Assembly: GCF_003574315.2 (NCBI RefSeq)
Contig: NZ_AP025739.1
Span: forward strand, 3,658,001-3,722,000
Reading direction: 5' to 3'
Source of the DNA: Capsulimonas corticalis
GTDB lineage: Bacteria > Armatimonadota > Armatimonadia > Armatimonadales > Capsulimonadaceae
Length of the DNA: 64,000 bases
This document shows, piece by piece, positions 3 to 28,947 of the stretch (the stretch's first letter is position 1; every line of letters starts with the position of its first letter). The position numbers were made by a program, and so were the translations under genes. A model generated the notes under the pieces. The model had not been told where the DNA came from and did not search any database. It saw only the letters and a list, made by a program, of their open reading frames with translations.

Positions 3-68
3 GCGCAGAAGGCCGTCGCGGCGGCGAACGAGCGCGTCGACGCGCTCGTGGCGGCGTCGGCCCGCTAG
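3..68 (+). CDS. C-terminal end of an unidentified protein (partial)
   Basis: The window opens inside an open frame that ends with TAG at 66-68, leaving about 21 residues rich in Ala, Val and Arg and ending in AASAR. A rho-independent type hairpin follows within 30 bases, which supports a real gene end here. Too little remains to assign a family. The frame choice is inferred from the stop and the terminator only. Confidence 0.45.
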   Translation, partial: AQKAVAAANERVDALVAASAR

Positions 69-94
69 GCGAGGGCGCCGGCTGCGGAAACGTG

Positions 95-133
95 AAAACG
101 GCCGTCCAGGGATTTTCCCAGGACGGCCGTTTT
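95..133. terminator. Bidirectional intrinsic terminator
   Basis: A 13-bp perfect inverted repeat (AAAACGGCCGTCC at 95-107 against GGACGGCCGTTTT at 121-133) has a T-rich flank on both strands. It lies between the partial plus-strand gene and the 3' end of the converging pseudopilin gene and can serve both. Confidence 0.85.
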
Positions 134-152
134 GAGTTTTGTATGCGATAAG

Positions 153-884
153 TTACTTGTAGAGGTTCTGCGAGTAGTTCAAGACCGTATAGCCGCTGGC
201 GTCGCTCGGTCCGGTGCTGAACGGCGTGTTGTCCAGCGTCCACATATTCACCGTGCCGCCGGCGCCGCCGTCGGTAGCGTCCAGGGTGGACAGGGGCCGC
301 ATGGATTTCGCGTGGCCGTCCAGGAAGAGGAAGTTCGCGAAGCCGGTGTGTCCAGAGAACAGGTTGCCCTGATGATCCGTGGCGACGGTCGGCTGCGCCC
401 ATCCCCAGGTCAGGTCCACATAGAAATCGGTGTACTTGGTGGTGCTCTCCACCACGCCGATCGTCTGGGAGGGAGCCTGCAAGCTCGCCAGCGAGACCGT
501 CGGGCTGGTGGGGTTATTCAGGTCGGTGAACGGGCGGTTGGAGCCCGTGTTCACGGAGTAAGACACGTTGCCGATGCCTTCCGTATCCGCCTGATCCTTC
601 TTTGGATTGGACGGGCACTGGAGCACGGCGTAGCTCTTAACATACGGCTGGCAGAGGAAATGCCAGTTCTTGCCGTTATAAGCCGTGTAGCGCGGCATCA
701 GCAGCTCATCATAGTCCTGCGAATACTGCATGATCGCCAGACCGATCTGCTTTTCGTTCGACAAGCAGGCCGTCTGCCGGGCCTTTTCGCGCGCCTTGGC
801 GAAAACGGGGAAGAGGATCGCCGCCAGGATGGCAATGATCGCGATCACGACGAGAAGCTCGATGAGAGTAAAACCTTTGCGCAT
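153..884 (-). CDS. DUF1559 pseudopilin-like protein
   Basis: A 243-aa protein with a type IV/type II pseudopilin N-terminus: prepilin cleavage after Gly4, Phe5 next, Glu9 at mature position +5, and one hydrophobic helix over about residues 5-26. It continues [13 protein letters not shown] and [11 protein letters not shown], the DUF1559 pattern, and ends with the H-x9-DG motif (His179, Asp189-Gly190). Such proteins are exported by type II or type IV pilus machinery, and many paralogues are typical of Planctomycetes and Armatimonadota. The function of individual members is unknown. The start is fixed by an AGGAAG ribosome site just upstream. It faces the terminator at 95-133 and has a strong promoter at 963-991. 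Confidence 0.93.
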
Positions 885-26434: not shown

Positions 26435-26463
26435 TTGCAATTCCGCCCGCCCCACGATATAAT
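26435..26463 (+). promoter_or_regulatory. Promoter placing transcription start at the permease ATG
   Basis: TTGCAA at 26435-26440 and a perfect TATAAT at 26458-26463 have a 17-base spacer. The ATG at 26470 lies six bases after the -10 box and no ribosome site is present, so the transcript is probably leaderless. Confidence 0.7.
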
Positions 26464-26469
26464 AGCTGC

Positions 26470-28314
26470 ATGGCCCTTATCCCCGTCGTCGGACGCACCT
26501 CCGGCAAGATTCGGCTGCTTTACGCCGCCCTCTATCTTGGCCTCACTCTGGGCGCCGTGACGATGGTCTATCCCCTTCTGATCATGCTCGGCGCGTCCGT
26601 CACGTCTCAGTATGACAATCAGGCGTATCAAATCCTGCCGGCCTATCTCTCATCGGATAACGCGCTGCTGGGCAAGTATGTCGAGGACAAATTTAGCGCC
26701 AACATCGCGCTGATCAACACGACGTACGGACTGAATATCGCCAAACTCCAGGATGTCGAGCCGCCGAAGGCGGTCGATGCGCGCGCGGCGTCGGATTGGA
26801 ATGCGTTCTTCGCCGGAGTTCCCGATCAATACAAGCTCGCGGGGTTCGCCGCCGCGACGGCGTCGTACAGTCCGAGCCCCTTGCTGGATCGGTACCGGGC
26901 GTTTTTGAGCCGGAAATTCCATGGCGACATCACGACCCTGGATAACGCATATACTCAGGAAGACGATACGTTTCTGGCGATCTTCCCGCCGTTCGAACAG
27001 CCCGGCAAACATGCGTGGCTTCCAGATAATTCGGCGAAGTCGCGCGACTGGCGAGAGTTCGAAAAGACCCTGCCGTCGAACTACTTTATTGGGATCGGCG
27101 GGGACGCGCTTTACCACCAGTGGCTGAAGGAAGAAGAGTATCCGGGCAAGATCGACGATTTGAACAAAGCCTGGGGAACCTCGTACAAAGGCTTTGGCGA
27201 GATTGCGCTGGCGGCGCTTCCCGAAGGCAACGCGGCGCGGCGCGCGGACTGGGAAAAGTTCGTGCGCACCAAGCTCCCGATCCGCTTTTTGATTGTCGAC
27301 CAGACGTTGGCGCTGCCGGCGTATCGCCAGTTTCTTCAAACGCGCTACAAAGGCGATCTGAGCGATTACAATAAACAGCATGCCTCGGCGTTGGCGTCGT
27401 TCGATCAAATTGTCCTGCCAAACCCAAGCGAATTGCCGCCGCAGGGCGCGCCGCTGCTGGACTGGACCGATTTCCTCAAGCAGGCGGCCCCGCTGGCCTC
27501 GCTGCGCGCCGATACGCTGGAAACGCGCTATCAGGCGTATCTCGCGGCGCACGGCGCTCCGGGGGCGTCGGCGAATATCGGCGCGGCCATGTTCGCCTCC
27601 GATTGGCGGTACGCGCAAACGCATGGATCGGCGCTGCGCTGGGACTATCTGACGCGCAATTACAAGCTGGTGATCGATTATATTGTGCTGCACGGCAACG
27701 CCGTCTGGAACACGATCCTGTTCTGCGCCCTGTCGGTGGTGACGGCGCTGATCGTCAACCCGCTTTGCGCCTACGCGCTGTCCAGATTCAACCTGTCCTA
27801 CGGCAATGGGATCCTGCTGTTCCTGCTGACGACGATGGCGTTTCCGGCGGAGGTGACGCTGATCCCGAACTTCCTGCTGCTCAAGGATTTGAATCTGCTC
27901 AACACGTTTTGGGCGCTGGTTTTGCCGGCGGCGGCGAGCGGTTACGCGATCTTTCTGATGAAGGGCTTTTTTGACAGCCTGCCCAAGGAGCTATATGAGG
28001 CCGGGACGCTCGACGGCGCGTCGGAGATGCGGATGTTTGGCAGCATTACGCTGCCGCTGTCGCGGCCGATCTTCGCCGTCATCGCGCTCGACGCCTTTCG
28101 GGCCGCCTACAGCGCCTTTATGTTCGCGCTGCTGGTCTGCCAGAGCCCGAAGATGTGGACCATGATGGTCTGGATCTACGAACTCGGCTCCAGCGGCGCT
28201 CCGCAGTTTGTCACGATGGCGGCCCTGACCCTGGCGGCTATTCCGACGTTGCTGATCTTTGTTTTCGCCCAGAATACGATCATGAAGGGCATTATCGTCC
28301 CGAGCTATAAATAA
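26470..28314 (+). CDS. Carbohydrate ABC transporter permease with a large repeat-bearing periplasmic insertion
   Basis: A 614-aa protein. Normal MalG-type permeases are about 280 aa. One N-terminal helix (about 14-42) is followed by about 355 extra residues before the remaining five helices. The C-terminal part has the standard fold and the EAA loop EAGTLDGASEMRMFGSITLPLSRP that docks the ATPase. The insertion holds about four units of roughly 70 residues, each with Y-x2-(F/W)L...G(D/K)(I/L)...LN-x-A(Y/W) and a later DWxxF element. No binding protein, second permease or ATPase gene is adjacent. Start: the ATG six bases after TATAAT; an upstream in-frame start lies in repeat DNA. Confidence 0.85.
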   Translation: MALIPVVGRTSGKIRLLYAALYLGLTLGAVTMVYPLLIMLGASVTSQYDNQAYQILPAYLSSDNALLGKYVEDKFSANIALINTTYGLNIAKLQDVEPPKAVDARAASDWNAFFAGVPDQYKLAGFAAATASYSPSPLLDRYRAFLSRKFHGDITTLDNAYTQEDDTFLAIFPPFEQPGKHAWLPDNSAKSRDWREFEKTLPSNYFIGIGGDALYHQWLKEEEYPGKIDDLNKAWGTSYKGFGEIALAALPEGNAARRADWEKFVRTKLPIRFLIVDQTLALPAYRQFLQTRYKGDLSDYNKQHASALASFDQIVLPNPSELPPQGAPLLDWTDFLKQAAPLASLRADTLETRYQAYLAAHGAPGASANIGAAMFASDWRYAQTHGSALRWDYLTRNYKLVIDYIVLHGNAVWNTILFCALSVVTALIVNPLCAYALSRFNLSYGNGILLFLLTTMAFPAEVTLIPNFLLLKDLNLLNTFWALVLPAAASGYAIFLMKGFFDSLPKELYEAGTLDGASEMRMFGSITLPLSRPIFAVIALDAFRAAYSAFMFALLVCQSPKMWTMMVWIYELGSSGAPQFVTMAALTLAAIPTLLIFVFAQNTIMKGIIVPSYK

Positions 28315-28317
28315 ACC

Positions 28318-28947
28318 ATGCTGATCCCCGACAACACAACCTCATCGCCGCTGGACTCCGTCCGCCGCGAGACACGCGAGCGGCACGGAGTCGGCATCAG
28401 CTTCCTCAAAGAGCAAGTCGGCGACGGGGTCATCTATGAAAACGAAACGGCGCGGGCCGTGTTCTCCGAGGCCGGCGGTTACTTCGAACTGTGCGATCTG
28501 CCCGAAGAGTTCTCCGGCGCGCTCGGCGCGGAGGTGACGCACTCGCTGATCGACACCGCCGCCACGCGCCGCCATCTTGCCGCGCTGGAGCAAGTGATCG
28601 CCGCGCTGCTGTCCGGCACGCTGTCGTTTCCTCTCTTCTCCCTGTATTTGATCTACGAAGGCGGTGATCTGCGCACGCGCGAGAACCTCTTCGTCTTTGA
28701 AGCGCGGGCAGGCGCACCGCCGATGCTGTTCGGCTCGTGGAGCCAGGAAGAGCTGCCGCGATTCGCCAAGATCCGCCTTCTGGCCCCTCCGGCCGCCTCA
28801 CTCGCCGGCCTGCCCATGGTCAACGGCGTCCAGTTTTTGCTGGCCCCGCGCCACACCGATGACGGTCGATTTCTCCTGGGGCAGCTTCCCCGCACCAGCG
28901 ACGCCGCGGACCTCGGATTGCACGCCGCTCCGGGAATGGCGAATTAG
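28318..28947 (+). CDS. Conserved-looking hypothetical protein
   Basis: A 209-aa protein starting three bases after the permease stop, so probably cotranscribed. No signal peptide or membrane helix. Acidic in the first half, with a possible helical stretch around residues 75-105 (RRHLAALEQVIAALLSGTLSF) and a beta-rich remainder (FSLYLIYEGGDL, LFVFEA, PMLFGSW). No family recognised. The joint position suggests a link to sugar uptake, but that is inference from spacing alone. Confidence 0.65.
   Translation: MLIPDNTTSSPLDSVRRETRERHGVGISFLKEQVGDGVIYENETARAVFSEAGGYFELCDLPEEFSGALGAEVTHSLIDTAATRRHLAALEQVIAALLSGTLSFPLFSLYLIYEGGDLRTRENLFVFEARAGAPPMLFGSWSQEELPRFAKIRLLAPPAASLAGLPMVNGVQFLLAPRHTDDGRFLLGQLPRTSDAADLGLHAAPGMAN

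Follow-up and report, generated by a model that had tools for sequence, protein, structure and literature searches.

The textbook ABC sugar importer has a plain MalG subunit, and the periplasmic domain that MalF bears in its TM3-TM4 loop, MalF-P2, is compact, beta-rich and Ig-like. Both the importer class and tethered binding proteins are already known, the latter from OpuA and GlnPQ, which belong to other importer families and whose substrate-binding domains are covalently joined to a permease subunit. In the E. coli CUT1 system (i.e., MalFGK2 with MalE), contacts of MalE with MalF P2 and MalG P1 have been reported, according to the titles of papers cited in PMC3150292 (refs 89, 98). The system that we describe here from Capsulimonas corticalis has in common with MalFGK2 a MalG-like core (Z 16.7), an EAA motif, an equivalent transmembrane loop that bears a periplasmic domain, a presumed MalF/MalG-type heterodimer and a MalK-type ATPase. 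However, its large domain sits on the MalG-type instead of the MalF-type subunit, is mostly built of helical repeats (unlike MalF-P2-type domains) and is about twice as long, and its sugar-binding protein (SBP) is fused to MalF where the E. coli one is free. The likeness to OpuA and GlnPQ extends to the partner gene only, where a sugar SBP lies N-terminal to a MalF-type subunit; unlike in those systems, the second permease subunit bears a repeat arm. We found neither such a permease nor such a fusion described for these phyla in the open literature that we searched, and a MalG-type repeat arm drawn from a hydrolase-like segment, together with an SBP-MalF fusion, is apparently an undescribed architectural variant.

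The permease gene lies in a window of 64,000 nucleotides (positions 3658001-3722000 of a 7.65-Mb, single-contig genome) and was found as a 614-aa open reading frame running from an ATG at 26470-28314 on the plus strand, as do all features located below by window position. Its product is a MalG-type permease subunit of the CUT1 class of sugar importers: the Pfam domain BPD_transp_1 covers the transmembrane core at residues 438-603 (27781..28278; E 2.4e-12; 47.4 bits against a cut-off of 26.4), an EAA-type coupling motif, YEAGTLDGASEMRMFGSITLP, occupies residues 509-529 (27994..28056), where contact with the ATPase is expected from the sequence, and the modelled core has a MalG-like fold (2r6g_G, Z 16.7, rmsd 3.5, 232 aligned residues, model 33..614; Foldseek, VIA). 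Within the EAA-type motif, E510, G516 and A517 are invariant columns of a 20-sequence alignment. The best NCBIfam relatives are UgpE and MalG, both below their equivalog cut-offs. A cytoplasmic, basic N-terminus precedes TM1 (residues 23-41; 26536..26592; assigned by hydropathy, with a predicted helix at 12-43), and the next transmembrane segment lies at about 410-438. What separates them, in the TM1-TM2 (P1) loop, is the arm (residues 44-400; 26599..27669). Nine other MalG-type permeases of the same genome align to this one only from residue ~389, and segment 44-400 is therefore extra. The modelled permease (33..608) also aligns with the MalF chain 9nxc_H (range 80..511), which is consistent with an insert located where MalF-P2 sits.

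No SBP, partner permease or ATPase adjoins the gene within the window, as the initial annotation had stated. Upstream, on the opposite strand, there is a sugar-kinase-type gene, rfaE/HldE-like by sequence, and downstream there are a 209-aa protein, a LytR-CpsA-Psr protein and a glycosyltransferase-like ORF. The 209-aa protein (28318-28947) starts 4 nt past the permease, has no Pfam match and is kept directly 3' of the permease in related loci of the same bacterial family (L010/L029, L012, L013). A promoter-like site, TTGCAA-17-TATAAT (26435..26463), supported by its match to the consensus and by conservation, ends 6 nt before the ATG, and a TATAAT is found 4-9 nt before the permease ATG in four related loci (the window, L029, L012 and L013). 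In this lineage, where the operon is split (see below), the permease is thus likely to be transcribed from a promoter of its own, as a leaderless mRNA.

The ~357 extra residues consist of four clear repeats of about 70 residues and a degenerate fifth. Specifically, an iterated repeat HMM placed repeat 1 at residues 60-123 (26647..26838; E 4e-15), repeat 2 at 135-207 (26872..27090; E 3e-18), repeat 3 at 209-275 (27094..27294; E 7e-20) and repeat 4 at 280-346 (27307..27507; E 7e-18). The degenerate repeat 5 covers residues 347-400 (27508..27669; HMM unit 347-407) and is intact in the related loci L030-L039. The best explanation has an arm of four modules here and, ancestrally, five. The initial annotation had read the gene as an ABC sugar permease with four tandem repeats in about 355 extra residues between TM1 and the other helices; this was borne out (each of the four HMM units has E<1e-14), and its unit starts (67, 141, 215, 283 and a partial one at 354) fall close to ours. 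Its repeat motif and DW-x2-F element likewise correspond to the conserved columns of the arm, Y..FL..ry..dI..LN.ay and DW..F. Two of the checks that it had proposed, self-alignment and fold prediction, both came out in favour of a repeated unit. When the insert profile (20 sequences) was aligned with itself using hhalign, off-diagonal matches appeared at offsets of ~75, 150 and 220 residues (E 4.5e-30, 6.6e-17 and 4.5e-10), and the real profile scored 220.5 against a top score of 19.6 among 20 column-shuffled controls. AlphaFold2 modelled the arm alone with a pLDDT of 88.3 and a pTM of 0.83, and predicted a regular unit made of a ~12-residue helix, an 8-residue helix, a short turn, a 12-residue helix and a 3-residue strand, the second helix being lost in unit 5. 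For the full permease (20 sequences) the pLDDT was 77.7, mostly 75-95 in the arm and about 50-75 in the transmembrane core.

Insert-bearing permeases were detected in 154 of 291 Armatimonadota genomes and are present in other phyla too. The closest public relative is locus L029 from a Capsulimonas sp. MAG (87% identity over the best segment), against which we obtained a dN/dS of 0.109 for the insert and 0.063 for the permease part; judged by these substitutions, the insert is under purifying selection. An assembly artefact, a doubt raised in the initial annotation, is ruled out by this selection (dN/dS about 0.11) and by conservation across genomes and phyla. Repeat number among relatives ranges from about 2 to 5 (5 in most), with fewer repeats (about 2-3) in L012, L013, L046 and several members of family f15. 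Within the relatives' loci examined, the repeats are absent from the partner and from other non-hydrolase proteins, and in the window's own genome single hits came only from GH42-like proteins and from one additional large ORF.

The resemblance of the repeats to beta-galactosidase-type proteins, suggested in the initial annotation, held up in both sequence and predicted fold. The repeat profile matches the GH42 enzyme 1kwg (E 4.8e-8; 1kwg residues 154-216) as well as GH14, GH50, GH167 and GH35-like structures; a reversed-repeat control returned no such enzyme and a single match (E 0.74). Thirteen of 18 single repeat units match Pfam GH42, most strongly repeat 3 (residues 214-267 of the permease; 29.6 bits against a cut-off of 21), and only positions 153-211 of the 376 in the GH42 profile match the arm. 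In the predicted structure, unit 2 superposes on residues 190-263 of B. cereus beta-amylase (GH14; Z 8.0, rmsd 2.8, 71 residues) and on residues 165-242 of BiBga42A (GH42; 8ibr; Z 7.8, rmsd 4.0, 73 residues). In this structure search the top 33 rows were without exception carbohydrate-active enzymes, and the sole other row had a Z of 2.1. Each repeat corresponds to one ~65-residue segment which in these enzymes follows the acid/base glutamate of strand 4 as a non-catalytic excursion.

We consider a common origin of the arm repeats and this hydrolase segment likely, given the profile and model matches. For helical units, Z values of about 8 are no more than modest and therefore do not prove it. 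The rival account of origin, in which a short helical hairpin came to look alike by convergence and the arm is an alpha-repeat scaffold of a generic kind, would be compatible with any function of the arm. It draws on the shortness of the segment (about 60 residues), its low identity (15-28%) and a Foldseek search of the whole arm that gave nothing at E<=0.001 (which is no proof of a new fold). Convergence nevertheless seems improbable to us in view of the sequence E-value, a motif that stays co-linear through DY/DW..F, the blank reversed control and structure matches that fall almost exclusively on hydrolase-like enzymes.

Unlike the GH42 and GH14 enzymes, the arm carries the segment in 4-5 tandem copies anchored to a membrane protein, without the barrel, the catalytic glutamate pair or the tryptophan of the hairpin tip. 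The model contains no (beta/alpha)8 barrel and the alignment no conserved glutamate at the equivalent place. Glu160 precedes the shared segment, meaning that the catalytic glutamate lies outside the arm-like region, and the repeats have a gap at the tip of the hairpin (W182 of 1kwg and four more residues). Glycoside hydrolase activity of the arm is thus ruled out, and a 'beta-galactosidase' Pfam match in such permeases is a misleading annotation. The missing tip also removes the best-known sugar contact: Trp200 of BiBga42A, which was equated with W182 by counting positions, touches the sugar of a neighbouring subunit (PMC10688820). This bears on the sugar binding that the initial annotation had suggested, and on the possibility that the arm itself binds oligosaccharides, capturing long glycans and feeding them to the fused binding protein or the pore. 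Its similarity is confined to carbohydrate-active barrels, the partner SBP is of the sugar type and arrays of modules could be multivalent; however, with the catalytic glutamate outside the segment, the tip tryptophan gone and conserved columns (N of LN, DW, P, G) that look structural, we judge glycan binding unlikely.

A partner for the permease was recognised by comparing its relatives. Directly upstream of the insert-bearing permease, most Armatimonadota families other than those of the window's clade carry a gene for an SBP fused to a MalF-type permease, and so do Lentisphaerae, Kiritimatiellota and Phycisphaerae. The upstream product is 800-1000 aa long in L030-L037, L040, L043, L045 and L047, and all four of those tested (L030, L034, L040, L047) had SBP_bac_1 and BPD_transp_1 in one chain. 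The fusion was adjacent in 12 families (f5, f6, f7, f19, f24, f28, f31, f32, f35, f41, f42, f43) and apart from the permease in f1 (the window's family), f2, f14, f15 and f17. Among the 291 Armatimonadota genomes, 134 had both genes, 20 only the insert-bearing permease, 7 only the fusion and 130 neither (fusion threshold E 1e-60; Fisher p 6e-51, ignoring shared ancestry). No third neighbour besides the fusion was consistent across phyla, and the neighbours gave no lead to the substrate.

The window's own genome encodes a homologue of the fusion at genome positions 4532274-4534637, 0.85 Mb from the permease (52% identical over 38-810). The whole fusion gene spans 4532208-4534646, for a product of 813 aa. 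It consists of a signal peptide, an SBP, one transmembrane helix and a MalF-type core, and among PDB entries it is related by sequence to sugar SBPs, SugA, AlgM1 and MalF. Among the matches in this genome, all other MalG-type permeases have a MalF-type subunit alongside; the window gene and the distant fusion are the only ones left unpaired. A MalK/UgpC-type ATPase, above its curated cut-off, is encoded alone at genome position 1419253. A MalF-type subunit, an SBP and a MalK-type ATPase are therefore all available in the genome, none of them adjacent to the permease, and by elimination, from the arrangement in relatives and from co-occurrence we infer that the permease pairs with the 0.85-Mb fusion and uses a shared ATPase. 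The true partner gene of such a permease may, in other words, sit hundreds of kilobases off. This leaves little room for the suggestion of the initial annotation that the insert may take the place of a separate binding protein. It had the lack of an adjoining binding protein in its favour; with an SBP fused to MalF as a near-constant partner in relatives, and encoded in this genome as well, the suggestion is scarcely credible and the insert was rejected as a stand-in.

By analogy with MalF-P2 and MalG-P1, we propose that the arm is an extracytoplasmic scaffold placing the tethered binding protein over the pore, a function to which we give about an even chance. The permease, the distant SBP-MalF fusion and the stand-alone MalK-type ATPase would form one importer, in which the arm would rise from the loop equivalent to that of P2 in MalF and to the MalE-contacting P1 in MalG, and could serve as a rigid support, holding or gating the tethered SBP above the translocation path. 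It would itself neither substitute for the binding protein nor hydrolyse sugar. At least two other SBP-MalF fusions of the same genome pair with a repeat-free MalG (829 aa with 303 aa in L119; 822 aa with 425 aa in L063), meaning that tethering alone does not require an arm and that the arm must contribute something beyond it. Two further observations count against the scaffold: a strict docking interface would not obviously tolerate a repeat number of about 2 to 5, and identity between the window arm and arms from other phyla is only about 21-29%, with few invariant surface candidates.

Variability in arm length and repeat number, which recalls spacer or adhesion repeats, speaks for an envelope or oligomerisation device that links the importer to a surface hydrolase, to the outer membrane or cell wall, or to another importer copy. 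In GH42 the homologous helix extends into the adjoining subunit and the segment helps to build the trimer interface (PMC10688820), and a Cys-rich segment in L042, L043 and L048 would also suit such a linker. Yet the only constant neighbour across phyla is the SBP-MalF fusion, and we rate a linking role as rather improbable. If the scaffold reading is right and the arm positions the tethered SBP, these importers would provide a natural, testable model of docking control over transport.

At a broader level, we suggest, with somewhat less than even confidence, that a segment of a glycoside hydrolase barrel was amplified into tandem repeats and placed in the loop of an ABC permease, giving a new class of extracytoplasmic arm that is obligate with an SBP fused to the other subunit and whose spread took in Armatimonadota, Lentisphaerae and relatives, and Phycisphaerae, with up to ten paralogous systems per genome. 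Such a case would show how part of a catalytic barrel can be put to new use as a scaffold of repeats, in a lineage-spanning family with a rebuilt extracytoplasmic side (i.e., SBP fused to one subunit, arm on the other). The ten systems were found in one Phycisphaeraceae genome (L047), where ten paralogous fusion and repeat-permease pairs, each adjacent, were matched by coordinates.

Several further features of these loci were recorded. The ten pairs of L047 represent a large expansion of the fusion and repeat-permease architecture. The other SBP-MalF fusion loci of the window's genome lie at genome positions 4338500-4344500 (L119) and 4780000-4793000 (L063). Lineages in which permease and fusion are apart (f1, f2, f14, f15) tend towards a lower repeat number (about 2-4, against about 5 where the operon is intact), and gene separation and repeat loss may go back to one ancestral event. 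In some Oligosphaeraceae/Lentisphaerae members (L042, L043, L048), the extra Cys-rich segment is zinc-ribbon-like (CPECG...CP..C), extracytoplasmic and placed between repeats 1 and 2. Finally, the core of the L040 and L047 permeases is interrupted after FLLLKRF by ~55 extra hydrophobic residues (alignment columns 670-726), possibly two additional transmembrane helices.
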